The notes under the pieces: generated by a model | Told to the model about the DNA's origin: nothing | The model's database searches: none | Seen by the model: the letters and a program-made list of their open reading frames with translations, nothing else | Position numbers and translations under genes: made by a program | Virus record (IMG/VR): IMGVR_UViG_3300020221_000074 | Span: 1-31,035 of that record | From: a virus | Direction: 5' to 3' (one strand) | Length of the DNA stretch: 31,035 bases | Shown: piece after piece, positions 1 through 31,035 of the stretch | How positions within the stretch are numbered: the stretch's first letter is position 1 | Layout: each line of letters begins with the position of its first letter

Positions 1-2
1 AA

Positions 3-127
3 GCCCAACAAAGCGTGTACCTGACCGCCTCTGGCGCGGGTGGGCGTGGCGACAATCCCCTGCAATCTAGTTTTATTGCAGATGACCCGTCCGCTAAACA
101 CGGCGGCAGGTAACGCAAAAGTTAGGC
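3..127 (+). other. attC-like recombination site 1 (integron cassette boundary)
   Basis: The site opens with GCCCAAC (3-9), which fits the R'' consensus RYYYAAC, and closes with GTTAGGC (121-127), which fits the R' consensus GTTRRRY. Just inside, GCGTGTACCTGACCGCC (12-28) pairs with GGCGGCAGGTAACGC (103-117) if one G and one A are left unpaired. That matches the extrahelical bases expected in a folded attC. The centre holds a small hairpin, CTGCAAT (60-66) with ATTGCAG (75-81). Length 125 bp is normal for attC. No integron integrase lies in the window. Confidence 0.7.
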
Positions 128-133
128 TTCTTC

Positions 134-652
134 ATGCAAAATAATCTCCCTCCCATCCTTGATGTGTGCTGCGGAAGCAAGGCGTTTTGGTTCAATAAAA
201 ACGATACTCGCGCCATCTATCTTGACATACGAAGTGAAACAATCCAAGCCGATAAGCGCAAAGGCAGAAAGCCAATTGAGATAAAACCAACATATATGGC
301 AGACTTTCAAAATATCCCGTTTCCCGATGAATCGTTTCATCTTGTCGTATTCGACCCACCCCATGTAACAGCCGCTCAAACTGGCTGCGTGCTTGCGTAT
401 TATGGCGTTCTTGGTGATAACTGGCGCGAAATGTTACGCAATGGTTTTGCAGAGTGTTTCCGTGTTCTAAAGCCAAATGGAACGCTTATTTTCAAATGGG
501 CTGAAACAAAAATCAGCGTTTCCGAAGTTTTGAAACTCACGCCAGAAAAACCGTTATTTGGGCATAAGTCTGGCAAGTTATCAAAAACGCATTGGATGAC
601 ATTCACGAAGCCTAAGATCAGGCTAACAAAGCGTCCACCCGACTTTTGCTAG
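134..652 (+). CDS. Class I SAM-dependent methyltransferase (phage DNA-methylase type)
   Basis: A 172-residue protein with a compact Rossmann methyltransferase layout. Residues 9-15 (LDVCCGS) are motif I, which binds S-adenosylmethionine. DPPH near residue 74 corresponds to the (D/N/S)PP(Y/F/W/H) catalytic motif IV of amino-methyltransferases, and FRVLKPNGTLIFKW (about 109-122) is the post-catalytic strand region. From memory, similar small proteins recur in phages and are annotated as DNA methylases; the target base cannot be told, but adenine N6 or cytosine N4 is most likely. The start lies seven bases after attC-like site 1 with no clear Shine-Dalgarno. The last ten codons read into attC-like site 2. 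Both are usual for integron cassette genes. Domain assignment is firm, substrate is not. Confidence 0.82.
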   Translation: MQNNLPPILDVCCGSKAFWFNKNDTRAIYLDIRSETIQADKRKGRKPIEIKPTYMADFQNIPFPDESFHLVVFDPPHVTAAQTGCVLAYYGVLGDNWREMLRNGFAECFRVLKPNGTLIFKWAETKISVSEVLKLTPEKPLFGHKSGKLSKTHWMTFTKPKIRLTKRPPDFC

Positions 653-754
653 TCGTCCGAAAAGATGGAAAACTCGGACGTAAAGTCCGAAAAGATGGAA
701 AACTCGGACGTAAAGTCCGAGAATTATGGCAGGTTGGCGCTTACTTCGAGAGGC
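621..754 (+). other. attC-like site 2, degenerate right end
   Basis: The left half, GGCTAACAAAGCGTCCACCC from 621, matches the left half of site 1 closely: AACAAAGCG followed by a TACCTGAC/CACCCGAC block. The right half, GGCAGGTTGGCGCTTA (728-743), is complementary to AAAGCGTCCACCCGAC with a few mismatches. The expected terminal GTTRRRY box is not recognisable at about 743-750, so the site may be worn or inactive. The centre has been expanded by a 30-bp tandem repeat. Confidence 0.5.
661..720 (+). repeat. 30-bp perfect tandem repeat, two copies
   Basis: Two identical 30-bp units occupy 661-690 and 691-720. Each unit contains TCGGAC-GTAAA-GTCCGA, a 6-bp inverted repeat, so the block can fold into two hairpins; a further GTCCGA lies at 655-660. 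The array sits in the central spacer of attC-like site 2 and ends 42 bases before the cytosine methyltransferase start codon. Reading it as coding sequence only adds repetitive basic residues, so I treat it as non-coding. Confidence 0.9.
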
Positions 755-762
755 AAAGTAGC

Positions 763-1953
763 ATGAAGTTTATCTCACTGTTCTCAGGCATAGGCGGCTT
801 CGATTTGGCGTTTGAACGCGCAGGCATGGAATGTGTCGCCGTGTGCCCCGTTCCAAAGGCTGAATTATTTGATGATGTCCGAAAGGTAGGAAAAGAAACA
901 CATGGAAGAAAAACAATTGACCTTGTTTGTGGTGGATTCCCCTGTCAGGATGTATCCATCGCAGGGCGACGCGCTGGTCTCGCTGGTGAACGCTCTGGCT
1001 TGTGGTTCGAGTTTGCCCGAATCATTGACGAAATTGAACCGCGATGGGTCGTTATCGAAAACGTCACTGGTCTTTTATCCAGCAATAAAGGACAAGACTT
1101 TGCCGTCATCGTTCAATGGTTGGCGGAGCGCGGGTATGGTGTTGCCTGGCGGGTGCTTGACGCTCAGTTTTTCGGAGTTCCCCAACGAAGGCGGCGCGTG
1201 TTCATTGTCGCAAGTTTTGGAAACGGAAGCGCCACCGAAGTATTATTTGAGTCCGAAGGCGGCGAAAGGGATAATCCAAAGGGCGGAGAAGCGGGGAAAG
1301 AAGTTGCCTACTCACTTAGAGCAAACGCTTCGCACAGTGGCGACAAGGGAGACGGCGGAATAAATACAACATTTGTTCCCTACGATTTTTTTCAGATTAC
1401 CGCTCCGATAAATAGACAGAACAGAAAATCGGGCGACCCAATGCACACACTGGCGAGTTCAAATGCCCAGTTTGCCCATGTTGTTTTTGACCGCCAACGC
1501 TCAGATGAATACGGCGAAGGTTCAGAGAATGTATCAACGCTTTCAGCGCGAGATTATAAAGGCGCAACTGATTTGATTTTATGGGAGCCACGTTCACAAG
1601 ACGGGACGCCTAGAATACATGAAAGCGGCATAGTTCCAACGCTAAACACAGCGCAGGGGAGGCAAAGGCAGTCAATGGTTGGAGTGCGTCGCCTTATGCC
1701 GATTGAGTGCGAAAGGTTACAGGGCTTTCCCGATGGATGGACAGACGGACAAAGCGACACGCAAAGATATAAACAGTTAGGAAATGCCGTTGCCGTTCCT
1801 GTGGTTGAGTGGATAGGCAGGCGTATCGTAAAGGCTGAAACACCGCCTAACAACCGCTTGCACTCTGACGCGGCTCCCGCGCAACAAGCATTATTCACCC
1901 CCGAAGATTTACCGTCCGAAGGGAAGTTACCTGCTAAATCCCCCCGCAGGTAA
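763..1953 (+). CDS. C5-cytosine DNA methyltransferase (Dcm family) with an N-terminal deletion
   Basis: A 396-residue C5-cytosine methyltransferase. Motif I is FSGIGGFDLA (7-16). Motif IV is GGFPCQDVS with catalytic Cys61. Motif VI is the ENV triplet at 99-101. Motif VIII is QRRRRVFIV (141-149). Motif X near the C terminus is RYKQLGNAVAVPV. The variable target-recognition region lies between VIII and IX. The start is ATG 763; the open frame continues upstream only through the tandem repeat. Between Cys28 and FDDV (36-39) the protein is about 12-15 residues shorter than family members such as M.HhaI. The missing part includes the motif II acidic residue that contacts the SAM ribose, so activity is in doubt. 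The last ~36 codons are read from attC-like site 3. Confidence 0.85.
   Translation: MKFISLFSGIGGFDLAFERAGMECVAVCPVPKAELFDDVRKVGKETHGRKTIDLVCGGFPCQDVSIAGRRAGLAGERSGLWFEFARIIDEIEPRWVVIENVTGLLSSNKGQDFAVIVQWLAERGYGVAWRVLDAQFFGVPQRRRRVFIVASFGNGSATEVLFESEGGERDNPKGGEAGKEVAYSLRANASHSGDKGDGGINTTFVPYDFFQITAPINRQNRKSGDPMHTLASSNAQFAHVVFDRQRSDEYGEGSENVSTLSARDYKGATDLILWEPRSQDGTPRIHESGIVPTLNTAQGRQRQSMVGVRRLMPIECERLQGFPDGWTDGQSDTQRYKQLGNAVAVPVVEWIGRRIVKAETPPNNRLHSDAAPAQQALFTPEDLPSEGKLPAKSPRR
902..1363 (+). CDS. Possible overlapping gene inside the cytosine methyltransferase (+1 frame)
   Basis: A 153-residue frame lies wholly within the cytosine methyltransferase gene. Its translation contains SEFPNEGGACSLSQVLET followed by KYYLSPKAAKGIIQRAEKRG. 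From memory this resembles a conserved small phage protein family with the pattern CSLSxVLET...YxLSPKAxxGIxxRAxxRGKxLP, usually annotated as hypothetical and linked to DNA methyltransferase genes. AGGA sits 11 bases before ATG 902, a weak ribosome-binding site. The likeness may simply arise because the main frame is conserved at the DNA level. No function is proposed. Confidence 0.4.
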   Translation: MEEKQLTLFVVDSPVRMYPSQGDALVSLVNALACGSSLPESLTKLNRDGSLSKTSLVFYPAIKDKTLPSSFNGWRSAGMVLPGGCLTLSFSEFPNEGGACSLSQVLETEAPPKYYLSPKAAKGIIQRAEKRGKKLPTHLEQTLRTVATRETAE

Positions 1954-1968
1954 AGCGAACCGTTAGCC
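1845..1968 (+). other. attC-like recombination site 3
   Basis: GCCTAAC (1845-1851) fits the R'' consensus exactly, and GTTAGCC (1962-1968) fits R' at six of seven positions. The left arm AACAACCGCTTGCACTCTGAC follows the same scheme as sites 1 and 2. The right arm GCAGGTAAAGCGAACC parallels GCAGGTAACGCAAAA of site 1. Length 124 bp is one base different from site 1. A perfect TTACCTGC/GCAGGTAA hairpin lies in the right half. The end of the cytosine methyltransferase gene runs into the site, as is common in integron cassettes. Confidence 0.65.
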
Positions 1969-1997
1969 GCGCCTTGCTACATAGAAAGGAAAATGAA

Positions 1998-2207
1998 ATG
2001 TCATACAGTGGTCGCATTGTCTTCGAGAGTGACATCGAAGGCACGGGTTGTACCTATCCCGTTGAAGATGTCATCGAGTTTGAAGCACGCCTAACACAGC
2101 GGTTACCCGACTTGTCGAAGGATAAGGAAGAATTTCTTTCCTTTATGCAAGATATTTTGAAATCGGAGTGTCATTGCTCCGTACAACATGGAAAAGGAGA
2201 TCTATGA
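1998..2207 (+). CDS. Small acidic protein of unknown function
   Basis: A 69-residue protein that I do not recognise. I place the start at ATG 1998 rather than the upstream ATG at 1974 because AGAAAGGA (1983-1990) gives it a good Shine-Dalgarno at about 7-bp spacing. The sequence is soluble and acidic in its middle (CTYPVEDVIEFEARLTQRLP). Two cysteines near the C terminus (CHC) could bind metal, but this is not a known motif. The stop overlaps the next start as ATGA (2204-2207), so the two genes are translationally coupled. An attC-like half-site is embedded at 2089-2111. Confidence 0.6.
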   Translation: MSYSGRIVFESDIEGTGCTYPVEDVIEFEARLTQRLPDLSKDKEEFLSFMQDILKSECHCSVQHGKGDL

Positions 2208-2764
2208 AATTACCACCCGATTTTGCAAAATTCCTGCGTGACGAAACCCGTCCGATCCACTTGCGTAAACTTGAAATTTTCATCCGCGTGAGGGGATGGA
2301 AAGAGGATAATGAACACCGCATACCCTCAGTCATGGAATACTACGCCGCAGTAGGGCGAGAGACGGGTTGGAGCGCAAAAACAATCGAAAGATCGCTCCT
2401 TGCGCTTCGTGAATATGACGATGAAAAACTACGCGATTGGTTTCAGAACGGTATTACCTTTTCCCATCTTGAAACGGCGAATTGGGCAACGACTGTCAAC
2501 GGCGCAAAACATTTTGAAAATCCCGCCGCCCTGCTTGATGATGCTGTGCAAGTGGGAAATGCAGAAAACAAAACAATGACGGTTGAGGAAATGCAGGCGC
2601 ATACTTTAAGCGAGCAAATCCCCCGTTCAAAGACATACAGAGAGGTTGGTTTTTTGTCCAGGCTGAGTGAAGGATTACCGATCAAACTAGGCTGGTCGTC
2701 TGAAAAGACAAAGACATTTCGGGCAATAGTTGCGGATTTGATAGCATTTGTGGAGGCAAATTGA
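2204..2764 (+). CDS. Hypothetical protein, helical N-terminal domain
   Basis: A 186-residue protein of unknown function. The start is ATG 2204, preceded by AAAAGGAGA (2190s) at a good distance; an in-frame ATG 36 bases upstream lacks a comparable site. The N-terminal 80 residues look like a helical domain, with RKLEIFIRVRGW, then VGRETGWSAKTIERSLLALREYDDE, reminiscent of a winged-helix or regulatory fold. That is only an impression. The C-terminal part is polar. It belongs to the 1998-3050 chain of overlapping small genes; its stop TGA is contained in the start region of the next small gene. Confidence 0.6.
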   Translation: MKLPPDFAKFLRDETRPIHLRKLEIFIRVRGWKEDNEHRIPSVMEYYAAVGRETGWSAKTIERSLLALREYDDEKLRDWFQNGITFSHLETANWATTVNGAKHFENPAALLDDAVQVGNAENKTMTVEEMQAHTLSEQIPRSKTYREVGFLSRLSEGLPIKLGWSSEKTKTFRAIVADLIAFVEAN

Positions 2765-2868
2765 AAATCCCTTCCGAAAAGACGCTTGAAAAATATGGAC
2801 GTGAATGGCTTGACAACTTGCCGAGCGTCTTGAAAAACAGACTTGACTTTGTGGAAGGAAAAATATGA
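2761..2868 (+). CDS. 35-residue small protein, TTG start
   Basis: An open frame of 35 codons begins with TTG at 2761 and ends with TGA at 2866-2868. It overlaps the preceding stop codon (ATTGA) and its own stop overlaps the next start as ATGA. GGAGG about 6 bases before the TTG can serve as ribosome-binding site. The peptide is short, charged and helical-looking (EKTLEKYGREWLDNLPSVL). Without this frame there would be a 100-base gap in an otherwise gapless chain of coupled genes, which is the main argument for it. Confidence 0.5.
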   Translation: MKIPSEKTLEKYGREWLDNLPSVLKNRLDFVEGKI

Positions 2869-3050
2869 GCGCATCTATATATACAACTTCATGGATGGAG
2901 TGGACAATCTCCGTCTGGATGGATAGAATTGGTGAATGGCATTACATTGCCACAAAAGGAAAAAAATATCTTGCCGATCGTATAGAGGCAAATAATCGCA
3001 TCGAGGCGGCCCGAAGGGTCGTAGAGAGATTACAGGATTTTACATGTTAG
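2865..3050 (+). CDS. Small protein of unknown function
   Basis: A 61-residue protein with a strong Shine-Dalgarno, GGAAGGAAAAAT, before ATG 2865. The N-terminal half is aromatic (MEWTISVWMDRIGEWHYIATKG) and suggests a small beta-sheet. The C-terminal half is a charged helix (ADRIEANNRIEAARRVVERL). It closes the coupled small-gene cluster. Its last codons overlap the left end of the inverted-repeat element at 3046, so the native C terminus may have been altered by that insertion. Function unknown. Confidence 0.55.
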   Translation: MSASIYTTSWMEWTISVWMDRIGEWHYIATKGKKYLADRIEANNRIEAARRVVERLQDFTC

Positions 3051-3226
3051 GCGGCTGTATGCAGAGAGTTATGGCAATAAGAGAACCGAAGCCCGCACGA
3101 GATATTACACTTTGCCAGGTGGCTTGTGCGCGATACGTAGCCCTCGCAGTCGCGTTCCGTGCTGACGTTTGCGGCAACATGGCTTCATGCCATGCAGAAC
3201 TGCCTCTTTGCACAGAGCCGCCTAAC
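3046..3226. repeat. Inverted-repeat-bounded element, 181 bp, non-coding
   Basis: The element starts with GTTAGGCGGCTGTATGCAGAG (3046-3066). It ends with the near-complement at 3204-3226, whose last 11 bases (AGCCGCCTAAC) pair perfectly with the first 11. Inside is a perfect 6-bp hairpin, CATGGC-TTCAT-GCCATG. The ends carry the same heptamers as the attC sites but in the opposite sense (GTTAGGC outside left, GCCTAAC outside right), which is not an attC. No target-site duplication is obvious. An open frame across it (3044-3253) has odd composition and I do not call it a gene. Confidence 0.6.
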
Positions 3227-3249
3227 TGGAAGTCCAAAAGGAAAAAAAC

Positions 3250-3876
3250 ATGAACGACAAACGGATAGTCGATCTGCTTGACGATAACAACTCCAGTTGG
3301 TTTCAAGACAACATAGTGTCGAATGCTCCTGTCATTATTGCTGTGTTTGCAAATTTTGTCGTAATTTTTGCGGATGTTCGGGCATACGATGTTGTCTATA
3401 AATTAACCGGCAGTTGGTGGAAGGCTCTCTCGGCGTCCCTCGCCTGTGCCATTCCGTTTATTTTGTGGGAAATCGGATGGCAATACAATCACACTACGGA
3501 CGCATGGCGCAGATGGTCGTTGTTCATGGCCGGGATTGCATTCTTTACGTCGATTTTCCTCGGCGTTGCCGATTTTCTAGATTTCAGTGGAGAATGGGCG
3601 GATATTCTACTCGGCGGCGTGGTTGTTCTAACCGGTCTTCACACCGTTATGGGTTTCCTCTATTACTACAATGATCCTTCCGTGGCGCGTAAAAGACATA
3701 AGGCGCAGGCGATAGGAACGATGCTGGATCGACAGATGAATGCAAGAGTCGCAAAAGAACTTTTGAAAAGCGGACGAGACCTTTTAGCAGTGATGAAGGA
3801 ACTGGAAAAAGAATATAACCCCGAAGACGTGGATGCTGTCATGGCAATCCTGCGGGGTAAAAAACGCCCAAACTGA
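3250..3876 (+). CDS. Four-span membrane protein, cytoplasmic tail
   Basis: A 208-residue integral membrane protein. Four hydrophobic segments lie at roughly 27-44, 56-77, 88-109 and 115-139. They are followed by a ~70-residue charged, helical, soluble tail (ARVAKELLKSGRDLLAVMKELEKEY). AAAAGGAAAAAAAC gives a clear ribosome-binding site before ATG 3250. It is too large and has the wrong tail for a classical holin, though it lies upstream of holin-like genes. Possible roles are membrane anchoring, superinfection exclusion or lysis control; none can be chosen from sequence. Confidence 0.7.
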   Translation: MNDKRIVDLLDDNNSSWFQDNIVSNAPVIIAVFANFVVIFADVRAYDVVYKLTGSWWKALSASLACAIPFILWEIGWQYNHTTDAWRRWSLFMAGIAFFTSIFLGVADFLDFSGEWADILLGGVVVLTGLHTVMGFLYYYNDPSVARKRHKAQAIGTMLDRQMNARVAKELLKSGRDLLAVMKELEKEYNPEDVDAVMAILRGKKRPN

Positions 3877-3954
3877 CGGGGCGGGCTAATCCCCCGCCAG
3901 AATCGTCAGATGAAATCCTGATCATGATCAGTCCGACAACAGGAGACGAACCGT

Positions 3955-4308
3955 ATGACATCCAAATACAAGGCGGCTCTGACAGAAAATATCCAGCTGT
4001 TGTCCTCAGAAGAAAACATAGAGGCAAAGGCGCAACCATCCTCACAATCTCAAAAAATGGACAACATGCCAACCTCTACCCAGACTACGAAGGCGCGATC
4101 CGCGAGTACCTCCAACGCCGACAACAAAACAGCGGTAAACGCCCTGATGCTAAGGGCGGCGTTGTTGTCCCTGGAGAAAGCGGGTTTGCTGAAGCGGTAT
4201 AAGGTGTTGTCAAAAAGCGACGCAACAGGCTTGCCTGTTGTCAAAGAAATTCGAGTTGTCCTTGATCCGTCTATTTGGTCTGAGGATTTTCGGCTGCACG
4301 TCGGATAA
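3955..4308 (+). CDS. Small two-part protein with S/T/Q-rich linker
   Basis: A 117-residue protein that I do not recognise. Residues 1-60 are rich in Ser, Thr, Gln and Asn and look disordered. Residues 60-117 form a folded-looking module (TAVNALMLRAALLSLEKAGLLKR, then a beta-rich end). I chose this frame over an alternative at 3924-4202 because AGGAG (3941-3945) lies 9 bases before ATG 3955, whereas ATG 3924 has no such site. The stop codon lies inside a perfect palindrome (4301-4319). Confidence 0.55.
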   Translation: MTSKYKAALTENIQLLSSEENIEAKAQPSSQSQKMDNMPTSTQTTKARSASTSNADNKTAVNALMLRAALLSLEKAGLLKRYKVLSKSDATGLPVVKEIRVVLDPSIWSEDFRLHVG

Positions 4309-4319
4309 TTATTATCCGA
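4301..4319. promoter_or_regulatory. Perfect palindrome at gene junction
   Basis: TCGGATAA-TTA-TTATCCGA is an 8-bp inverted repeat with a 3-base loop. It overlaps the stop codon of the upstream gene and lies 10 bases before the lipoprotein start codon, which has no visible Shine-Dalgarno. There is no following T-tract, so an operator or a translation-control hairpin is more likely than a terminator. Confidence 0.45.
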
Positions 4320-4328
4320 TACAATTAT

Positions 4329-4661
4329 ATGGACAGAGATGGCAAGTTTTTGCGATATATCGTTCTGCTTATATTAGTTTCGCTGGCATGTGGTGTTAAT
4401 ACAGGTATTCTTATTAACGCCCCGACGGTAGAAGTACGTCAAGCGACCCCGATTCCGCAGATTGGGGAATCCGTCACTGTGATAGTAGAAAATGTTTATC
4501 TCCGATCATGGGAGGGCGAAATAATGTCCAGTGCAAAGTTGGGCGACACTTTCATGGTTGTAGATTTGGGGGACGGAAGAGGTTGGATAGTGGGGACATC
4601 GTGGTATATTTGGATGGGGTGTACCAGCGCGGCTGATGAAAGGAGGTGTTTGCCGAAATGA
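4329..4661 (+). CDS. Lipoprotein with SH3-like domain
   Basis: A 110-residue protein with a lipoprotein signal peptide. A basic N terminus (RDGKFLRY) and hydrophobic stretch IVLLILVSLA lead to lipobox SLAC with Cys21 as the likely lipidation site. After a short linker, residues ~45-95 (GESVTVIVENVYLRSW ... LGDTFMVVDLG ... GWIVGTSWYIW) resemble a bacterial SH3 domain. It would be exported and tethered to the membrane facing the cell wall. Roles could include spanin-like lysis help or blocking of superinfecting DNA entry. No Shine-Dalgarno precedes ATG 4329. The stop overlaps the next mini-ORF as ATGA. Confidence 0.65.
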   Translation: MDRDGKFLRYIVLLILVSLACGVNTGILINAPTVEVRQATPIPQIGESVTVIVENVYLRSWEGEIMSSAKLGDTFMVVDLGDGRGWIVGTSWYIWMGCTSAADERRCLPK

Positions 4662-4708
4662 ATAAGTTTAACAGTGAAGTGAATAGGGATCAGAGTGTGG
4701 TACAATAA
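4658..4708 (+). CDS. 16-residue mini-ORF with consensus Shine-Dalgarno
   Basis: AAAGGAGGTG, an almost complete anti-16S match, lies 10 bases before ATG 4658. The frame gives 16 residues (MNKFNSEVNRDQSVVQ) and stops at TAA 4706-4708, 18 bases before the holin-like gene. Its start overlaps the lipoprotein stop (ATGA). The very strong ribosome-binding site suggests a translated peptide or a leader that couples translation into the next gene. Coding status is uncertain. Confidence 0.4.
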   Translation: MNKFNSEVNRDQSVVQ

Positions 4709-4726
4709 CCAAAAAGGAGCAATAAA

Positions 4727-4915
4727 ATGAAAAAACTAGACGGATATAAGACAGTTGTTTTCTTTGTATTAAGTTTACTTGTGGCATTAGCCAACTTGTT
4801 TGGATTTGCAGATTTTCGGCTTTCATCCGAACAAAACGAACTGCTTCTGGTTGCAGTCAGTGTTGGCGGATTGCTGCTTCGTTATTTGACCAAAGGCGAG
4901 ATTTTCAAAGGTTAG
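4727..4915 (+). CDS. Small two-span membrane protein, holin-like
   Basis: A 62-residue protein with two hydrophobic segments, about residues 9-27 (TVVFFVLSLLVALANLFGF) and 40-55 (LLLVAVSVGGLLLRYL), and a short charged C terminus. AAAAAGGAGC gives a good ribosome-binding site before ATG 4727. Size, topology and position next to another small membrane protein fit a class II holin, which would permeabilise the membrane and release the GH25 endolysin. The endolysin is encoded on the opposite strand at 6998-8107. Holins have little sequence conservation, so the call rests on topology. Confidence 0.6.
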   Translation: MKKLDGYKTVVFFVLSLLVALANLFGFADFRLSSEQNELLLVAVSVGGLLLRYLTKGEIFKG

Positions 4916-4938
4916 TCCAAATACGGACACCGCGCCCT

Positions 4939-4975
4939 GCTCCGCACGAGATGCTGGTACAGCACCGTGCGGAGC
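4939..4975 (+). promoter_or_regulatory. Long GC-rich hairpin between holin-like genes
   Basis: GCTCCGCACG (4939-4948) pairs perfectly with CGTGCGGAGC (4966-4975), and within the loop TGCTG (4952-4956) pairs with CAGCA (4960-4964). No T-tract follows, so a simple intrinsic terminator is unlikely. It may stabilise mRNA or control expression of the following gene, whose start codon is 26 bases downstream. Confidence 0.5.
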
Positions 4976-5000
4976 ATCTGGACGGGCGAATGGAGGTATT

Positions 5001-5255
5001 ATGGCGGCAAGAAAAACACAGTCGGACAAGTTGGATCAAATTATGGAGAAGGTGAGCGAGATACAAAAAGAATTGCTCGAACGTAAACATTTCGACCAAA
5101 AGACGCTTGTCCACGAGGAAATGCTGCTTGGTAATGGCAAGCCAGGCTTTCAAAACATCCGCGATAAGGTTCTGTCGTGGGACGTCAAATTCACGGCGAT
5201 TCTACTTCTCGTATTGGGGGACATCATATTACGAATAATACAACAATCCTATTAA
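5001..5255 (+). CDS. Small membrane protein with N-terminal coiled coil (XhlA/holin-like)
   Basis: An 84-residue protein with a charged helical N terminus (DKLDQIMEKVSEIQKELLERK, residues ~9-29) and one C-terminal membrane segment (KFTAILLLVLGDIILRII, about 63-80). This layout is like hemolysin XhlA-type or antiholin proteins that partner with a holin. GGAGG lies 6 bases before ATG 5001. It follows the two-span membrane protein after a hairpin-bearing spacer, so the two may act as a holin pair. The call rests on topology and position, not on sequence motifs. Confidence 0.55.
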   Translation: MAARKTQSDKLDQIMEKVSEIQKELLERKHFDQKTLVHEEMLLGNGKPGFQNIRDKVLSWDVKFTAILLLVLGDIILRIIQQSY

Positions 5256-5273
5256 GAATCGGACAGATCACCC

Positions 5274-6092
5274 ATGAAAAAAAAAGAAAAAGACCGACAA
5301 AACGTCGTCGTGTCCGATATTCACGCCGGTTCGTCCACTTCTATTTTTCCTCCCTCGATAACTCTGCCTCCATTGATGGAGATGGAAGGCGACAGGAAGA
5401 TCTACGCCCAGTTCCATCAATTGAAAATATACGATCACCTGATGGCGCAGGCGAAGAGGATAAAGCAATCATCCCTTCCGAAAACCGTCATATTCAACGG
5501 GGACCTGATAGAGGGAACGAGATTGAGGACAATTCAATTGTCGGTTCCTATGCTGGACGATATGAGACTTGTCGCAATCGAAATAATGGAAACTTTTCTC
5601 GATGCAATGGGGTTTTCAGTAAAAAACGGCGACGAGTTGTACATTACCAGCGGTACGGAAGTTCACACAGAATTTATAGAGGCTTACATCGCCCGACATT
5701 TTCAGCATCTGGGAGCGGTGTATTGCGACACGGGTGAGCTGATACAAAACGGACGGCGGATATGGTTTACGCATCAATGGGTTGGAGCGGGTAAAGGACA
5801 CAATGAGGGTAACGCGATCTATAACGGATTGAAGGCAATTTATTACGACTGTCTGAAGGAAAAGAAAGAAATGCCCGATTTAGTCATAGGGTCGCATTTT
5901 CATAAATCCGCCTTAGGCTCATACAGTCAGTCGTGGAATACCTATTATGGAATAATCTCCCCCTCGCTGCAAATGAAAACCCGCCACGCTTTGAGAGCGA
6001 GCGGGTTTCAGCGTAACGACATAGGCATAATCGACTATGACATAACAGCGGAAGGAGCTTTTATATTCCGTGACCCTGTGCTTATGCCGTGA
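5274..6092 (+). CDS. Calcineurin-like metallophosphoesterase
   Basis: A 272-residue phosphoesterase. Metal-binding motifs are in order: DIH (Asp15, His17), GD (Asp77) in FNGDLIEG, GTEVH (127-131) where the family usually has GN-H-(D/E), a His at 167 in THQW, and GSHFH (206-210), the GHxH motif. This is the calcineurin/Mre11 fold, able to hydrolyse phosphodiesters or phosphomonoesters with two metal ions. Substrate cannot be predicted; small size argues against a full SbcD. The Asn of the fourth motif is replaced by Thr. The start follows an A-rich run (nine A after ATG) and has no Shine-Dalgarno. It is convergent with the late operon, with 12 bases between stops. Confidence 0.75.
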   Translation: MKKKEKDRQNVVVSDIHAGSSTSIFPPSITLPPLMEMEGDRKIYAQFHQLKIYDHLMAQAKRIKQSSLPKTVIFNGDLIEGTRLRTIQLSVPMLDDMRLVAIEIMETFLDAMGFSVKNGDELYITSGTEVHTEFIEAYIARHFQHLGAVYCDTGELIQNGRRIWFTHQWVGAGKGHNEGNAIYNGLKAIYYDCLKEKKEMPDLVIGSHFHKSALGSYSQSWNTYYGIISPSLQMKTRHALRASGFQRNDIGIIDYDITAEGAFIFRDPVLMP

Positions 6093-6104
6093 TGTATGAT
6101 GAGA

Positions 6105-7013
6105 TCATTGTTCTGGAACATACGGCGAATATTTTTCACCGGCGGAGACAAGTCTCACGTGTTCTTTTCGTATTAGATTAGTCCCACCTCGTGAGCCAAG
6201 CGGAAACGGCGTCCCAGTTCGTTCCAAACCCAGATAATCGCAAATGACTTTGATTTGCGGATACATTGAAACTGTCCAGCGCTTATCGGGCAATTTCACA
6301 ACTGTCTGTTCCGTAGCCCAATGGATGAGATGCTGTTTGTCGATGACGCTACTCAATAACGGCGGCGGTTTCAGAAAATCGAATGCTTCGACGACATAGT
6401 ATTTATCCCACTTGTCCAGTATTTTAACTATATTGCCGGTGGTAGTCAAACATTTCCACTCATACGGTTTTCGTCCAATATTGCGACCGGTCACATAATC
6501 GGCATAGCCATTCTCAGGCGCGGATGTGTCCGTAAATGAACGATGGTCTTCGATTAGATTTACATACGCCCATGTTAAACTGCCGTCTGTGCATTTCGCA
6601 AAAGTGTACAAATTTGGCGCAACTGGAACATCGATTTTACCTTCCTCATAATGATATTCGATTTTTCCCTCCGGCGCGCGTCCGTTCAATTGATAAGCCA
6701 AAAGTTCCTTGAGCCAAAACTGCCATTCTCTTGACAGCGCCTGTCTGTCATAGATAGCGCCATTGTATCTACCCCACAACATTCTCGTAGACGGCAGTGG
6801 ACGTTTATATCCCGGTTTTCCAAAATTCGGCATGAGTTGACGAGGCTGTCCCCAAATGTCGGGTGGCTTAAAACCATTCTCAGGCAATTCCCAGTCGTGC
6901 AACACTCGCGCATATTGCCCGTCATTCGGCACGCGCAGATCTATATCTCGCCGCAATACCGGCTTATCCGATCTATTGCCGATCGTAAGATGAATGTTTA
7001 TTGTTTTTTCCAC
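6105..7013 (-). CDS. Hypothetical phage protein downstream of endolysin
   Basis: A 302-residue protein of unknown function, the last gene of the late operon. The frame is open further upstream, but that part overlaps the endolysin end and reads as low-complexity shadow (rich in R, N, G). GTG at 7013 is the most sensible start, giving a 16-base overlap with the endolysin. The protein is rich in Trp, Tyr and Pro. A strand-rich part around TGNIVKILDKWDKYYVVEAF and a C-terminal beta-like segment could be SH3-type or carbohydrate-contact modules. Position suggests a lysis or virion accessory role; this is inference. Confidence 0.55.
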   Translation of the reverse strand: MEKTINIHLTIGNRSDKPVLRRDIDLRVPNDGQYARVLHDWELPENGFKPPDIWGQPRQLMPNFGKPGYKRPLPSTRMLWGRYNGAIYDRQALSREWQFWLKELLAYQLNGRAPEGKIEYHYEEGKIDVPVAPNLYTFAKCTDGSLTWAYVNLIEDHRSFTDTSAPENGYADYVTGRNIGRKPYEWKCLTTTGNIVKILDKWDKYYVVEAFDFLKPPPLLSSVIDKQHLIHWATEQTVVKLPDKRWTVSMYPQIKVICDYLGLERTGTPFPLGSRGGTNLIRKEHVRLVSAGEKYSPYVPEQ

Positions 7014-8107
7014 AACACACCGTCCACACTGACGCCGGTCACCGTGCCATTCTCGATGTCGATCTGTACATCTGCATTGATTGACGGTGTGGATGCCGGA
7101 GTTGGATTCGGTTCCGGAGTTGGATTTGGAGTACCTTCCGTACTGAAATCCTTGCAGATCGGCGTACCTTTGTGTATGTATGCCATCCAGCCGACAATCC
7201 CTTTGTAATCGATTCTCAGCCACTTATCGCCGATGTCCTGGTATGGCGTTTTTTGTGTTGCTGTAAATAGTTCATCGCCGCTGACGACCACATTCGCAGG
7301 TACATTGGCAAGCACCCGACCAAGTGTACTGGATAATGTGCGAATTCTGGTATCGTTTGAAATTGTTGTCATTCGATATTTCATTGTTTGCTCCTTATTA
7401 GATCGATCGATCGGCAGGACGCCGTCGATATTGAACATCTTGTGAAACTTCTCCAGCGTCCCGTTGAAATAATTCAGGTCGACATTTTTGCTGTCATAAA
7501 TGCCGTATTTTCCAGCATCTCCCTTGTCTGTATATTGCCACAGAGTCCAGTCCGACCAGGGCTTTGGCAGGAGCGGTTTGTCTACTTTATAGTTGGCAAT
7601 CCACAGCGGGAAATTGCTCCACCACTCCGCCATGCTGTATGACATGCCTGCGGTATGCTCCATCCAGTAATAATAACCGGTGTACACCCCTATTTTTATG
7701 TCCTTATCTGCCGCCGAAAGTCGTAAAATAAAATCCTGCCAGTCCTGCCAGCGTCTCCATTTGCCTCCATAGTTGTCCTCGAAATCACACCACAAGCCCA
7801 GTTCGCCATAATCGTCGTCAACGATCGATAGCCACAAATCCGCCTGTTTCTTCGGCTCGGCGCGACTATCGTAAAACCAATAACTGCCATGCGGCAATCC
7901 CACCGCCCTGGCTTGCTTGCGGTAGTTTTGGAACTCCCTGTCCTGCCAATTATTTTGACCGGCACGGAATACGGCAAAATTGGCATTGAGTCGCATCGTA
8001 TCGAAATCGATCTCGCGCCTATCAGGGTCGCTAACAGGGAGATTCTGCCAAAGAGAAATATCAACGCCGGTTGTTTCCAACTCCTCCTCCCGGGATAATG
8101 TGTTCAT
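6998..8107 (-). CDS. GH25 lysozyme endolysin with SH3b domain
   Basis: A 369-residue muramidase that cleaves the glycan of peptidoglycan for lysis. The GH25 barrel runs from about 13 to 225: GVDISLWQ opens it, and CDFED gives the catalytic DxE pair (Asp108, Glu110). IGVYTGYYYW and WTLWQYTD are further family motifs, and DLNYFNG closes the barrel. An SH3b cell-wall-binding domain (about 242-315) follows, then a Pro-Thr linker (NPTPEPNPTP) and a short C-terminal strand region. GGAGAGG before ATG 8107 fixes the start; an ATG 36 bases upstream lies in the tnpB end. No signal peptide, so it needs a holin. A tnpB gene sits 20 bases upstream. Confidence 0.9.
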   Translation of the reverse strand: MNTLSREEELETTGVDISLWQNLPVSDPDRREIDFDTMRLNANFAVFRAGQNNWQDREFQNYRKQARAVGLPHGSYWFYDSRAEPKKQADLWLSIVDDDYGELGLWCDFEDNYGGKWRRWQDWQDFILRLSAADKDIKIGVYTGYYYWMEHTAGMSYSMAEWWSNFPLWIANYKVDKPLLPKPWSDWTLWQYTDKGDAGKYGIYDSKNVDLNYFNGTLEKFHKMFNIDGVLPIDRSNKEQTMKYRMTTISNDTRIRTLSSTLGRVLANVPANVVVSGDELFTATQKTPYQDIGDKWLRIDYKGIVGWMAYIHKGTPICKDFSTEGTPNPTPEPNPTPASTPSINADVQIDIENGTVTGVSVDGVLWKKQ

Positions 8108-8126
8108 TTGCACCCCTCTCCAATAC

Positions 8127-9365
8127 CTACCAAAATCTACCATGAGATTCTGTGCTTGGTTCCTGTATCAACGAGGTCGCCAACGATATTTCTGTTGGTC
8201 TTATATCACTCTCCACAGGCGTGACTTTCCGAGAAACTCCCGGTAGTTTTGGTGCTAAATTCTTGAGATTAATTGCCGCGTTCAAGTCGCGGTCGTGTAT
8301 TGCACCGCAATCGCAAGTCCATTCCCGATCCGATAACTTGAGTTCTGAATTGATGCAACCGCAAAATCGACATAGCTTGCTGGAAGGAAAGAATCTACCA
8401 GCCAACATCAATTCGGAGCCACACCAAATCGTCTTGTACTCCAACTGCCGACGAAACTCGGCAAATCCGACATCGCTGATTGCTTGCGCCAAACAATGGT
8501 TTGCCAACATGCCCGACACATTTAGGTCTTCAAGCACAATTGCACTTGGACGTTCGTCATCTAGCTTGGTTTTTGCCACGATAACTGAAGTCGCCTTGTG
8601 CAGTGTATCACGCCGGATATTGGCTATTCTTTGGTGTATTTTGGCAACTTTCCTCCGTGTCTTTTCTCGATTCTTGCCGCCTTTCTTTCGGCGTGATAGC
8701 TCACGCTGAAGTCGCTTTAATTTTGCTTGTGCTTTCTTCAGTGGCTTCGGGTTCTCAAATCGCCGTCCGTCAGAAACAACGGCAAGCTCTTTAATTCCCA
8801 AGTCAACGCCTACAGGCTCTCCGGTTGCCTGGGTAACTTCTATCTCCTGTCGGCACTGAACACTTACAAACCATCGTCCGGCAGACTCGGACACTGTAGC
8901 AGACAAGATATGAATACCATCGGCTGGAATGTAACTATGTTCTTTTAGTCTAAGCCAGCCAATACGGGGGAGTTTGACATGTGTCTCAGCGATGTGAATT
9001 GCGCCTGTTAGCCTAAAACTTCCAATGCCGTTTTTCCGACTCTTGAACTTGGGAAAGCCGGGTTTTTCGCTATTCTTCACGCGACGGAAGAAGTTTTGAT
9101 AGGCTTTGTCCAAGTCGCGTAAAGCTTCTTGGGGGGCTGCCTTGCTGACCTCGTACAACCATGGAAAATCTGTCTTTTTTAGCGCGTTTAATTGCCGATG
9201 CTGCTCAATGGCATTGCTCGATTTGCCCGTTTCCTCATATTCTTGCTTTCGCCGCGCAAGTCCCCAGTTCCAAGCGAATCGAGCAGCACCCGCATGTTTC
9301 AGCAAAGCAGTTCGCTGAACATTGTTTGGGTCAATTTCAACCTTATATGCTCTAAGAATTTCCAC
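8127..9365 (-). CDS. tnpB: TnpB, RNA-guided nuclease of an IS200/IS605- or IS607-type element
   Basis: A 412-residue TnpB. The split RuvC nuclease is intact: Asp188 in GVDLGIK (RuvC I), Glu279 in VLEDLNV (RuvC II), and Asp358/Asp360 in HDRDLNAAINL (RuvC III). A zinc ribbon is present (CRFC at 332-335, CDC at 351-353). The N-terminal helical part begins with RAYKVEIDPN, typical of the family. TnpB proteins are RNA-guided DNA nucleases; the guide (omega) RNA normally overlaps the 3' end of tnpB and the element's right end, here near 8100-8250. The start is GTG 9365, with AAGGA about 11 bases upstream. No tnpA is present, so the element would need a transposase in trans. Confidence 0.92.
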   Translation of the reverse strand: MEILRAYKVEIDPNNVQRTALLKHAGAARFAWNWGLARRKQEYEETGKSSNAIEQHRQLNALKKTDFPWLYEVSKAAPQEALRDLDKAYQNFFRRVKNSEKPGFPKFKSRKNGIGSFRLTGAIHIAETHVKLPRIGWLRLKEHSYIPADGIHILSATVSESAGRWFVSVQCRQEIEVTQATGEPVGVDLGIKELAVVSDGRRFENPKPLKKAQAKLKRLQRELSRRKKGGKNREKTRRKVAKIHQRIANIRRDTLHKATSVIVAKTKLDDERPSAIVLEDLNVSGMLANHCLAQAISDVGFAEFRRQLEYKTIWCGSELMLAGRFFPSSKLCRFCGCINSELKLSDREWTCDCGAIHDRDLNAAINLKNLAPKLPGVSRKVTPVESDIRPTEISLATSLIQEPSTESHGRFW

Positions 9366-15735: not shown

Positions 15736-16428
15736 TTATTTCCTTTCGAGTATTTCGAATATGTCGGCGCGAGGATAAACCTCCAATGCGCCTCCTATGG
15801 TACAGTTGTAGATCGGGACGGGACTGCATCGCTTCGCCATTTTATGAAGGGTCAGCATGTTCCCGTTATCCATCGCTGTTTTGTCGGTTGTGTCCCGTGT
15901 ATAGTTTGGAATGGCGTGGTTTTTGTTCACATCCGGCGTATATCCCAGGTCGCATCCAAGCAGGTAGATTTCAGAATATCCAAGCATAACTCCAAGCTGG
16001 ATCATCGCGGACATCCCGCCGAAGGCTGTACAAAGCGTCGGGAAGTGCCAGGACTGGGTGGCTTTGTAGTTGTCCCACTGGTACGCCGAATCCTTGCATT
16101 TTTTCAACCAGGTGACATTGGGTACGTCCCCAACCCCGCTTGGCAGGTATTCGTGCAAACAATGGGTTTTGGGATAACCTTCCCTGAATTGCTCCCACAG
16201 GAACAATTTGCATCCGTGCCGTACAGCCCACTCGATTTCATCCTTCCAACTCATCCGGTCGTATGAATTATAGTCGATCTTGAAATAATGCGTGGGGATG
16301 AAGTCCCATTGGTGGAAGTCGGAAATCCGGTTCCACTTGTTCATCACCATTACATCCTCGCTTTTCAGCAGGTTCATGGGTGTGTCTTTCAGGGATGGGC
16401 CGCTTCCGACTAGAAATATCCTGGACAT
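15736..16428 (-). CDS. GT42/DUF115-like glycosyltransferase-fold protein (copy 1)
   Basis: A 230-residue protein. GSGPSL (8-13) is the nucleotide-binding loop of the sialyltransferase-like (GT42) and DUF115/MptE-like families. DVMVMNKWNRI follows as the second strand. GYSEIYLLGCDLGY (150-163) is the family's later strand motif, and NH (170-171) followed by NYT gives a candidate catalytic His171. IYNCTIGGALEVY closes the fold. Enzymes of this fold transfer sugars from CMP- or other nucleotide donors; DUF115 members modify flagellin or surface sugars. The start forms TAATG with the upstream paralogue's stop. Donor and acceptor are unknown. Possible roles are virion glycosylation or change of host surface sugars. 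Confidence 0.7.
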   Translation of the reverse strand: MSRIFLVGSGPSLKDTPMNLLKSEDVMVMNKWNRISDFHQWDFIPTHYFKIDYNSYDRMSWKDEIEWAVRHGCKLFLWEQFREGYPKTHCLHEYLPSGVGDVPNVTWLKKCKDSAYQWDNYKATQSWHFPTLCTAFGGMSAMIQLGVMLGYSEIYLLGCDLGYTPDVNKNHAIPNYTRDTTDKTAMDNGNMLTLHKMAKRCSPVPIYNCTIGGALEVYPRADIFEILERK

Positions 16429-17066
16429 TAGAACAATTTCTCCAATACAACCCGCTCGTAGGCTTCCAAAGTACCGCCTACTCCCGCGTTGTATATCTTT
16501 ACCGGACTTGATCGAGCCGCAACCATGTGCGCGGCCAGAATATCCATGTTGTTGTATCTTGGGCTGCGCATTCCGGCTGTGTAGTTATCGTCGAAGTGGT
16601 TCTGTTTCTCTTTATAATCGAGATCGCATCCCACAAGATAAATAGGCCCGAAACCCCGCTGTACCGCTATCTGTATTGCAACATTCACGCTTGAACCAAA
16701 ACCGCAGAGCAGGGGGAAGTGCCATAAGTGGGGGCTGTCCTGTTCGTCGAAGTGTTTAAGGTGATGCGTGCAAGAGGCAATGGCGTGAAAGTTCCTGTTT
16801 CTGTCCAATTCCTGCATTCCTTTCAAGAACCATACGTTTGCCCAGACCTCGCATTTCAGATCTTCGATGTGCAGGCGCAGGTCTTCGACATAATTCAATG
16901 GAGATTGGGTTGCGGCTTCTTCTGCACGGACGTAGAATTTTGGCCTCCATTTTGTGTAGGGATATATAAGGCTGATGGAATTCACTCCAAAACACGCCTC
17001 GTTTTGTAAAAGTTCTAAGTTCGTACTAGCGAGGCTTTTACCGTTTCCAACGACAAAGCACCGCAT
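16428..17066 (-). CDS. GT42/DUF115-like glycosyltransferase-fold protein (copy 2)
   Basis: A 212-residue diverged paralogue of the next gene downstream. It shows the same landmarks in order: GNGKSL (7-12), ACFGVNSISLIYP, GFGSSVNVAIQIAV, PIYLVGCDLDY (141-151), NH (156-157) with NYT four residues on, and KIYNAGVGGTLEAY. The Pro of the GxGPSL loop is replaced by Lys. The shared NH-x3-NYT block makes a functional His likely. GGATGG lies just before ATG 17066. The two genes are coupled through TAATG. A tandem duplication followed by strong divergence suggests two different sugars or acceptors, or a heterodimer. Confidence 0.68.
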   Translation of the reverse strand: MRCFVVGNGKSLASTNLELLQNEACFGVNSISLIYPYTKWRPKFYVRAEEAATQSPLNYVEDLRLHIEDLKCEVWANVWFLKGMQELDRNRNFHAIASCTHHLKHFDEQDSPHLWHFPLLCGFGSSVNVAIQIAVQRGFGPIYLVGCDLDYKEKQNHFDDNYTAGMRSPRYNNMDILAAHMVAARSSPVKIYNAGVGGTLEAYERVVLEKLF

Positions 17067-17952: not shown

Positions 17953-19161
17953 TTATGAGTCGCGGCCTAACGAGAATTCGCCGCGAATCAGGCGGTTTTC
18001 AGCATAGCGCGCCATTGCCCCGTACCATTTCCAGGCCAGAGAGACGAATGTATCGGCATATCCTTGTTTCTTGGGTCCGACAATCGTACCATAGCGCCCG
18101 TTGCCCATTTCGCTTGCGTAAACCAAAGCCAGCGATTGAGGCCCGCCGAATACGGCAGTACCGACAGAGTCGTTGTTATTGACAGCGACACCGACGGCGT
18201 GCGCAAAACGGAAGCCGCCGTTAGGTCCTTGTCCAATCGCGCCGACGGTTGTACCGCTGATGGACGAAACCTTGATCTGTTCATTGGTTGGATAGTGGGT
18301 ATTGCCTGTTTCCTCGGTGCCTACGTTCAACAGCATACCGACTGCAATACTTGTGCCGGAGGCAACAGTAAATGTCAAGTCGCCTGGGGCAATAGCTGTA
18401 GTGGCAACAGTAGTCGCAATGGCTGTGGCGTTGTCCGCTCCCGCGCCGAGGAAGGTCTTGGCCCACGGGCTGACTACGATGCGGAAGTTTCCAACCGATC
18501 CAAGTTCGTTGTTCAGTAGAATCTTCTGATTCTGATATTCGCCGATTGCGAGGATGACTGCCGAGGTGCGCAGATCGCTCCACATCTTAGGAGGCATGAT
18601 CACAATATGCTGAGGCCCATTGGGGGTCTCCCAGCCTGGAGCATGTGAGTCCATGAAATCGCCCATGACATCGTCGAAAGCGGTGATGCTGATCTCATTT
18701 GCGCCGGAGTTCAACAAAGCACGGGCAGCGGGGCGATAAACATTGCCTCCCTGCAAAGCCGCGTTCTGGGCTACGAGATCGACCGATTCCACCATATTCA
18801 GCCCCAATTTCTTGAAGCGAGCCGAGGCATAGGGGGTATAAGTTTGCATTAAAAGCAGTTCACTGTCCGTAATCGCATTGATACGGGAAGTGGGGGTCAC
18901 AGAAACCGTGCCGTCAGACAACTGTACGGGTGTGACATCATAGACCTGTGAAATCGTGCCGGTCACAGGTTCCAAGTCGTTCAGGAAGGGTAAAACTACG
19001 CTTGAACCGCGAAACAGTTCAGACTGCGGTTTATCGAAAACCGCATCGTCCGCCAACTGGCTGTAAAGCCAGGCTGGTTCAGCCGCTTGAAGATAATCTT
19101 CGACGTACTGCGCCCGAATCGAACTGTCGAGTTCGGTAGTTGTGTTATAGCCGCTGGCCAT
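17953..19161 (-). CDS. Major capsid protein, N4-gp56-like
   Basis: A 402-residue protein. The N terminus (TTTELDSSIRAQYVEDYLQAA, then PAWLYSQLADD), the GSSVVLPFLNDLEPVTGTIS segment, and SRINAITDSELLLMQTYTPYA closely follow the N4-gp56 family of HK97-fold capsid proteins, which lack a large cleaved delta domain. A ~60-residue strand-rich insertion (GDLTFTVASGTSIAVGMLLN ... SSISGTTVGAIGQGPNGG, around residues 250-310) probably forms a surface-exposed domain. The end EMGNGRYGTIVGPKKQGYAD ... FVSLAWKWYGAMARY fits the family's C terminus. It follows the scaffold gene by 12 bases and would be the most abundant virion protein. Confidence 0.82.
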   Translation of the reverse strand: MASGYNTTTELDSSIRAQYVEDYLQAAEPAWLYSQLADDAVFDKPQSELFRGSSVVLPFLNDLEPVTGTISQVYDVTPVQLSDGTVSVTPTSRINAITDSELLLMQTYTPYASARFKKLGLNMVESVDLVAQNAALQGGNVYRPAARALLNSGANEISITAFDDVMGDFMDSHAPGWETPNGPQHIVIMPPKMWSDLRTSAVILAIGEYQNQKILLNNELGSVGNFRIVVSPWAKTFLGAGADNATAIATTVATTAIAPGDLTFTVASGTSIAVGMLLNVGTEETGNTHYPTNEQIKVSSISGTTVGAIGQGPNGGFRFAHAVGVAVNNNDSVGTAVFGGPQSLALVYASEMGNGRYGTIVGPKKQGYADTFVSLAWKWYGAMARYAENRLIRGEFSLGRDS

Positions 19162-30298: not shown

Positions 30299-30353
30299 TT
30301 TGTGAGAAGTCGAACATTTGGAATTTTGGGAAAAATTTAATCGGGGAGGCTAC

Positions 30354-30426
30354 ACAGACAAACAATAACACAACACTCAGACGTACCCCATCGAGACGAG
30401 CGAACACAACAGACAAACAATAACAC
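30354..30426 (-). repeat. 18-bp direct repeat between the terminase genes
   Basis: ACAGACAAACAATAACAC occurs at 30354-30371 and again at 30409-30426, 55 bases apart, in the 142-base gap between the small and large terminase genes. Such iterated motifs near terminase genes can be packaging (pac/cos) or terminase-binding sites. No gene is supported in the gap. Confidence 0.85.
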
Positions 30427-30440
30427 CAGCCGAAATTTGT

Positions 30441-30932
30441 CTATACATCAGCATCCGTCTCAGCATCCGCATACACTGCATCCACCACGTCGCCAACCGC
30501 CAGACGCCGCCGCAGGACAACTGCGACGATGTCCACGTCGCCCAGCCCGGGCGCTGGGACGGCGGGAGCCGGGGCGACTCTGCCGACCGCCGGCTCAGCA
30601 AGCCCGGTGTGCAGCAGCAGAAACTCCGCCGCGCGTGTCGCAGCTACGCCGGCGTCGGGCGTGGTGGAGATCGCCTGCTGCGTCTGCGCAACCTCTGCCA
30701 GCCATGCCTGCCTGCCAAACCTCCGCCGCAACTCCGCATCCTGCACGCCGTCCGCCAGCGCCGCGCGGATGAGACGCCGCTTTTTCGCGAGGCGCGCCGC
30801 GTGCATCTCGTGCGCAGTCTCGGAGGTGATAGGGGGCGCACCGCCGCCGCGGACACCCGGGAGCCAGCGCCCCCTGGCGTCGCGAGTGGGGGGCGCTGCG
30901 GTATCTGTTGTATCTGTTGTATCTGTATCCAT
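30441..30932 (-). CDS. terS: Probable terminase small subunit, GC-rich
   Basis: A 163-residue protein. TRDARGRWLPG followed by GGGAPP is like the N-terminal segment of terminase-small-like (DUF5681-type) proteins, and the helical part after it (KKRRLIRAALADG, ELRRRFGRQAWLAEVAQTQQA) fits DNA binding. Location directly before the large subunit supports the role of recognising the packaging site. The N terminus has a DTTDTTDT repeat from three 9-bp units (30901-30927). Base composition is extreme (about 73-82% GC in the 60-base stretches I counted, versus about 45-58% in two stretches elsewhere). There is no Shine-Dalgarno; a -10 box lies six bases before ATG 30932, suggesting a leaderless message. 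Confidence 0.6.
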   Translation of the reverse strand: MDTDTTDTTDTAAPPTRDARGRWLPGVRGGGAPPITSETAHEMHAARLAKKRRLIRAALADGVQDAELRRRFGRQAWLAEVAQTQQAISTTPDAGVAATRAAEFLLLHTGLAEPAVGRVAPAPAVPAPGLGDVDIVAVVLRRRLAVGDVVDAVYADAETDADV

Positions 30933-30934
30933 GG

Positions 30935-30950
30935 CTGCATTATAACACTT
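30935..30950 (-). promoter_or_regulatory. Extended -10 promoter for the late operon, probably leaderless
   Basis: TGTTATAAT, an extended -10 element (TATAAT at 30944-30939 on the minus strand), lies only six bases before the small-terminase ATG. Transcription would begin at or next to the A of the start codon. No -35 match is found at 16-18 bases. If this is the late promoter, it may need a phage or host activator. Confidence 0.5.
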
Positions 30951-30981
30951 TTAATCGTTGAAAATTGGTGTCTCAAAAACC

Positions 30982-31010
30982 TTGACAATCAAGTGGCTTG
31001 ATAGTAAGAT
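30982..31010 (+). promoter_or_regulatory. Consensus rightward promoter with palindromic operator
   Basis: TTGACA (30982-30987), a 17-base spacer and TAAGAT (31005-31010) form a strong sigma70-type promoter. The spacer holds ATCAAG-TGG-CTTGAT (30988-31002), a perfect 6-base inverted repeat placed where a repressor would block RNA polymerase. It is divergent from the late operon and would drive genes beyond the right edge of the window. Confidence 0.6.
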
Positions 31011-31035
31011 AGGGATAGTTGAGTACGTGGTACAC

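Follow-up and report, generated by a model that had tools for sequence, protein, structure and literature searches.

Methyltransferase cassettes and attC sites of an Anaerolineales/Chloroflexota type at one end of a tailed-phage contig

Results

Methyltransferase genes and attC sites at the left end

The DNA analysed here, which we call the window, is a linear IMG/VR virus record of 31,035 bp (IMGVR_UViG_3300020221_000074), taken at its full length. The following features were recognised in it.

3-113, plus strand: C-terminal tail of an upstream cassette gene, truncated by the contig end (AQQSVYLTASGAGGRGDNPLQSSFIADDPSAKHGGR*)
3-127 (125 bp), plus strand: attC site 1, intact; R'' GCCCAAC at 3-9, R' GTTAGGC at 121-127
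134-652, plus strand: MT1, a 172-aa SAM-dependent DNA methyltransferase of the phrog_954 family with a DPPH motif
621-739, plus strand: attC site 2, decayed; the left half is kept, the right stem arm is missing and the R' box reads GTTGGCG (733-739)
655-714, plus strand: two exact 30-bp repeats in tandem, each a hairpin unit, within site 2
763-1953, plus strand: MT2, a C5-cytosine DNA methyltransferase, its C-terminus encoded by site 3
1845-1968 (124 bp), plus strand: attC site 3, diverged with the plan intact; R'' GCCTAAC, R' GTTAGCC
1998-2207, plus strand: 69-aa ORF with an attC-type left half within the frame (EARLTQRLPDLS)
2089-2111, plus strand: attC left half alone (GCCTAACACAGCGGTTACCCGAC), two mismatches, right half absent
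3046-3226, plus strand: 181-nt structured element without an ORF, bounded by GTTAGGC...GCCTAAC, with the ends GTTAGGCGGCT and AGCCGCCTAAC
3250-3876, plus strand: 208-aa membrane-protein-like gene flanking the array
6105-30932, minus strand: phage late region, with the endolysin (6998-8143), capsid (17953-19161), portal-like (26804-28576) and large terminase (28592-30298) genes

The two methyltransferase genes lie in one orientation, as the earlier note had read them, and both were identified with Pfam and PHROGs. MT1 matched phrog_954 (E 1.8e-64) and Methyltransf_11 (E 1.2e-9) and has relatives in 234 phage records; MT2 matched PF00145 (E 8.9e-66) and TIGR00675. MT2 retains the PCQ and ENV motifs and the C-terminal GN motif (GNAV), and it is without 12 residues that are kept in its relatives in Virus Rctr41k and in the viral contigs G001, L298 and G048. 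Aligned with M.HhaI, these residues correspond to motif II, including its acid. In C5 methyltransferases the motif II acid binds the ribose of SAM, and this feature of an active enzyme is missing from MT2. The protein encoded in the window may therefore be inactive, or the 12-residue deletion may be an error of assembly. The 69-aa ORF at 1998-2207 had no family match in Pfam or PHROGs and is likely to be an older cassette gene; for the ORF starting at 2168, no relatives were found.

It had also been claimed that the gene ends run into the sites, and this proved correct: MT1 stops in site 2, which encodes its C-terminus RLTKRPPDFC, MT2 stops in site 3, and site 1 is read through by an open frame, with a type of tail (AQQSVHLTASGAESPTLNPLQMSLFAEVSPATIGGR) that also occurs in the viral record G006. 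The stops inside attC, together with the open frame through site 1, indicate that attC encodes the C-terminal tail of each gene. Some attC-encoded tails contain motifs resembling clamp-binding motifs, QMSLF among them and QQALF in the MT2 of the window; such tails were seen at L262 11559-11938 (minus strand), L263 2230-2610 and window 1845-1953. Judging from these motifs, the cassette proteins may be tethered to the replication clamp.

To evaluate the sites, a covariance model was derived from 28 attC sites of other viral and host contigs, the window sequence being excluded. In the alignment behind the model, 96.4% of cells were paired compared with 81.1% in shuffles, and 94 cells had changed on both sides with the pairing kept, a number that none of 500 shuffles reached. 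Site 1 scored 55.8 bits (E 1.3e-14), the match spanning both stem arms, and the fold of its bottom strand has an energy of -30.9 kcal/mol (z -4.2). Site 3 was weaker, at 29.6 bits (E 8.6e-7) and a fold z of -2.5. The covariance-model search that the earlier note had called for thus matched two sites, and the outcome of no attC hit did not occur. Sites 1 and 3 both carry RYYYAAC/GTTRRRY boxes, with C at the last R of GTTAGCC in site 3, and both show an imperfect stem with an unpaired centre, extrahelical bases, a variable loop and a bottom-strand fold; in site 1, the unpaired bases described in the earlier note fall at the positions expected from the family alignment.

The earlier description of three sites on the attC plan, two of them 125 and 124 bp long, therefore stands for sites 1 and 3, in both length and folding, and has to be reduced to a half site for site 2. 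The left half of site 2 has two mismatches to the left-half motif, and the whole site scored 9.5 bits (E 0.83), with a right box that reads GTTGGCG and without the imperfect-stem fold of the bottom strand; the position of this box was set by the start of the MT2 cassette homology. The tandem copies at 655-714 form terminator-like hairpins on the minus strand. When up to three mismatches are allowed, the window contains three copies of the left-half motif, compared with 0.00 copies expected in shuffles. The third copy is the left half at 2089-2111, for which the fold was not significant. Neither this left half nor the inverted-repeat element at 3046-3226 had been described in the earlier note; when both are included, the array reaches approximately 3.2 kb.

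No tyrosine recombinase was recognised among the window proteins scanned, and neither intI nor attI was recognised. With two attC sites 1.8 kb apart and no recognised intI, the left end qualifies as a CALIN; it does not qualify as a complete integron, since no intI was recognised in the window and the contig ends at site 1.

The flanking element and the phage genes

The element at 3046-3226 has a fold z of -4.3 and an 85% identical copy located directly 3' of the last attC in the viral record G036; between two sequences, five compensatory pairs were observed. Elements of this kind, with GTTRGGC...GCCYAA ends, are thus seen in the array regions of two phages (window 3046-3226 and L283 9269-9452, minus strand). 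Rfam gave no match for the whole window or for the region 2900-3300, and the element could be a gene-less cassette or a new structured RNA.

The flanking gene at 3250 has a 65% identical relative in the attC-bearing phage contig G002 and weaker ones in G018 and G036. Similarly, the genes at 3955, 5001, 5274 and 11918 have relatives in G047, G016, G020, G001, G006 and G039, all of which carry attC arrays. In the late region, the terminase matched phrog_38 (5e-41), and the capsid phrog_1357 (3e-15); the match of the portal was weak (1.6e-4). By its predicted terminase, portal and major capsid genes, the window phage is a tailed phage (Caudoviricetes). Terminase and capsid searches of IMG/VR revealed no close relatives of the phage as a whole.

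Several other features of the phage region were observed. A TnpB-like IS200/IS605 accessory protein (8127-9365, minus strand; phrog_506, E 6e-125) is encoded between late genes, with no TnpA seen adjoining it. Two adjacent, similar-looking genes (15736-17066, minus strand), one of which matched a family of phage sialyltransferases (phrog_4603, E 1e-8), may modify surface sugars. The G+C content is clearly higher at the right end (0.59 at 30001-31000 compared with approximately 0.50 elsewhere), and a small terminase gene may lie within 30377-31035.

Cassettes shared with Virus Rctr41k and other viral contigs

The DNA of the MT2 cassette (window 733-1863, plus strand) is homologous to positions 6761-7938 of Virus Rctr41k (KX853513.1). 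In both genomes, the R' box (GTT) marks the left edge of the homology block, which stops approximately 18 nt into the next attC; this suggests divergence or exchange of that attC. L298 and G001 show the same left boundary at the R' box, upstream of which the sequence is unrelated. Including Virus Rctr41k, three other viral contigs contain this C5-methyltransferase cassette. Judged by its sequence boundaries, MT2 is a gene cassette, a mobile unit that extends from an R' box across one gene as far as the following attC. Other cassette genes are also held in common, MLNLQPITYPEACKF by G011, G023 and G049 and MKNKRLDVQCAGF by G006, G007 and G012.

Virus Rctr41k has six attC sites, two of which enclose the MT2 relative, and its integrase gene, annotated as xerD-like, scored 383 bits with TIGR02249 (cut-off 265). 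The presence of intI and six attC sites indicates a complete integron (L372, KX853513.1, 4680-10101) in which the MT2 relative is one cassette among others. Over window positions 1-8000, no relationship of late genes to Virus Rctr41k was seen at the DNA level.

Spread of the attC type and comparison with host integrons

The left-half motif is very common in the genomes of Anaerolineales and other Chloroflexota, and it was found in 102 stretches of IMG/VR contigs. The covariance model recognised approximately 300 sites in 83 viral loci of IMG/VR. All 50 viral records that were searched whole carried 2-14 attC sites; the records had been selected for already showing such sites. A large terminase was identified in 32 of the 50 (23 through phrog_2 and nine more through phrog_38 alone), which indicates that most of the attC-bearing viral records are true tailed-phage contigs. 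The earlier statement that cassettes next to phage structural genes are rare accordingly holds in relative terms, but about 80 IMG/VR loci bear this attC type.

The sites and cassettes of phages and hosts differed in several respects. Phage attC sites are often 81-111 nt long, compared with 124-139 nt for host sites in the sets examined. Sites shorter than 120 nt made up 87 of 150 viral and 0 of 136 host sites (Fisher p about 1e-32), the two sets having been fetched with slightly different patterns; at least one such site was present in 24 of 27 viral records and in none of 56 host loci. A few short host sites appeared under a looser host search, so the split in length is strong rather than absolute. 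The stop codon lay inside attC in 83/107 viral and 9/80 host cassettes, and in 48/66 and 8/76, respectively, when ORFs of at least 90 aa were considered. The median cassette size was 457 bp in viruses and 944 bp in hosts. Methyltransferase cassettes numbered about 10 of 65 in phages versus about 5 of 76 in hosts, an enrichment that is suggestive but not strong.

The inner arm GACCGCC, which defines the subtype of site 1, was found in 10 of 101 viral left halves versus 1 of 241 host left halves, and among the loci fetched, the best full-length BLAST relatives of site 1 were mainly viral contigs. When window positions 1-3230 were compared with 46 attC-bearing host genomes, 23 of which carry intI, only two weak matches were obtained, both inside the MT2 gene. 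At E 1e-60, the MT2 protein was found in none of 298 Anaerolineae genomes, in a search that had no positive control among those genomes. On this sequence evidence, arrays of this kind are widespread in related environmental phages and unlike those of the likely bacterial hosts.

Integrases of the attC-bearing phages

A nearly full-length IntI-like gene was present in 10 of the 50 viral records, eight of the genes scoring above the curated cut-off. In these ten records and in Virus Rctr41k, intI and the attC sites share one strand and the sites mainly follow the integrase gene, although in two of the phage arrays this order holds only if the contig is circularly permuted. In contrast, the six host loci with both in view had attC upstream of intI on the opposite strand; one more host locus, which the tree places as sister to Rctr41k, has attC and intI on one strand. 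Seven of the 11 phage IntI proteins form one clade (G010, G013, G017, G035, G039, G042 and G043; the IMG/VR records behind the loci L012, L137, L141, L169, L178, L187 and L188) that has support of 99/100, is distinct from the main group of 21 host IntI proteins and has intI co-directional with the array. The IntI proteins of Rctr41k, G025, G023 and G049 fall outside it. In G010, G017, G042 and G043, a terminase gene was observed near the array, in some cases across the contig ends, and G010 and G017 look circularly permuted with a break between intI and the array.

Discussion

How might an array of methyltransferase cassettes have come to lie beside the structural genes of a phage? We consider it highly probable that the left end of the window is a phage-borne CALIN with attC sites of an Anaerolineales/Chloroflexota type in a tailed-phage genome, that at least one integrase-dependent capture brought in the methyltransferase cassettes, and that these came from a pool held by phages. 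By attC type alone, the host of the window phage would belong to the Anaerolineales/Chloroflexota. In established integron biology, the substrate of IntI is the bottom strand of attC in its folded form, and cassettes are joined at G^TTRRRY. In the mechanism that we propose, at least one capture of this kind would have placed the cassettes in the phage, with an IntI supplied by the host or by a co-infecting phage that carries an integron, and the cassettes would have been drawn from a pool circulating among phages rather than straight from a host chromosome. Sites 1 and 3 appear from their structure to be still usable; because site 2 has lost its right arm, MT1 and MT2 would move together as one two-gene cassette. 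Site quality falls from site 1 on the left to the half sites on the right, as would be expected if the entry point lay to the left, beyond the contig. The likely benefit to the phage would be methylation of its DNA against host restriction, though the MT2 of the window is probably inactive. The identity of the sites, the homology among phages that follows cassette boundaries and the phage setting are seen directly in the sequences, whereas the host, the origin of IntI, the current activity of the sites and the roles of the enzymes are inferred.

The earlier note had left two alternatives, namely that the phage captures cassettes or that it sits beside a chromosomal integron. The second, in which positions 1-2000 would be host DNA next to a prophage, or the prophage would lie inside the integron, draws on the abundance of the same attC left half in Anaerolineales genomes (with intI in 23 of 46), on the tendency of repeats to break contigs, this contig ending at an attC, and on the position of that end 2 bp before site 1, from where the array could continue into non-phage DNA. 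We regard it as improbable: the MT2 cassette, the subtype of site 1, the element at 3046-3226 and the gene at 3250 are closest to attC-bearing phage contigs and not to Anaerolineae genomes; genes of the window end inside the sites in the manner of phage cassettes, whereas host arrays have 124-139-nt sites with the stops before attC; and neither attL/attR nor a phage integrase is visible. The evidence thus favours the first alternative. A chimeric assembly, in which a cassette array was joined to an unrelated phage at a repeat, is conceivable in a metagenomic contig with repeated attC sites, and the contiguity of array and phage is judged here from shared genes rather than from a second assembly. 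A false junction would be easiest at an attC, yet more than 1 kb of non-repetitive DNA and a second shared element separate the last intact attC from the phage genes, and the same association recurs in dozens of independent viral contigs, one of them a phage genome in GenBank; we therefore give this explanation very little weight.

It is less easy to set aside the view that the attC sites are fossils, no longer used in recombination, and that the methyltransferases are by now ordinary, fixed genes of the phage. In favour of this view are the broken site 2, the weak site 3, a fourth site of which one half exists and the absence of IntI; nevertheless, site 1 is fully intact and folds well, and the MT2 cassette has moved among unrelated phages. 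As an account of the whole array we find this view unlikely, and for part of the array it is compatible with a phage-borne CALIN filled by integrase-dependent capture.

We speculate further, with a confidence only slightly better than even, that the window is part of a phage-adapted cassette system: phages of Anaerolineales would share a pool of compact cassettes of their own, in which short attC sites double as the 3' ends of genes, mobility is maintained by a phage-specific lineage of IntI with its gene co-directional with the array, and many of the genes are DNA methyltransferases, so that the pool would be distinct from host integrons and would serve the shuffling of counter-defence genes. 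Phage integrons have so far been regarded as host cassettes captured now and then, with 21 phages in the one survey found. The present data suggest instead a permanent cassette economy, adapted to phages, in a bacterial phylum that is abundant but little studied, comprising integrase-bearing phages, integrase-less carriers and shared methyltransferase cassettes, and they make it testable whether phages shuffle anti-restriction genes by means of integrons. They also reveal an integron missing from the annotation of a deposited phage genome, that of Rctr41k. No paper naming Virus Rctr41k was found among the open-licence papers searched, and the phage-integron survey makes no mention of it. The same papers yielded no account of the phage-adapted class of sites and cassettes, the phage IntI clade or the Rctr41k integron; the cassette pool and the clade with co-directional integrase and array are apparently unreported.

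CALINs with methyltransferases in phages are themselves already published, and the window adds another example. Qi et al. 2023 (PMC9892861) described CALINs in virulent phages, including Polaribacter phage P12002L with two DNA methyltransferases, and showed that phage CALINs are recombined by IntI1. The window resembles the P12002L CALIN in being a phage-borne attC cluster without an integrase, in its methyltransferase cassettes and in the inverted GTTRRRY motifs at the array edge. It differs in its Anaerolineales-type attC family, in the phage that carries it and in belonging to a large phage population with a distinct attC length class; moreover, recombination was tested in that study, whereas the window array is known from its sequence. 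With Virus Rctr41k, a phage from a DAMO enrichment, the window shares the same C5-methyltransferase cassette between attC sites, but Rctr41k has its own intI and thus a complete phage-borne integron. The chromosomal integrons of Anaerolineales/Chloroflexota have the same left and right attC halves and R boxes as the window, but in the sets compared their sites measure 124-139 nt, their cassettes are twice as long, their genes end before attC and their intI is divergent from the array. Finally, integron parts are also carried by Vibrio Va_90-11-286_p16, by P1 with a class 1 integron and by Shewanella M16-3, all of which captured host or class 1 integrons, whereas 7 of the 11 phage IntI proteins described here form a separate clade.
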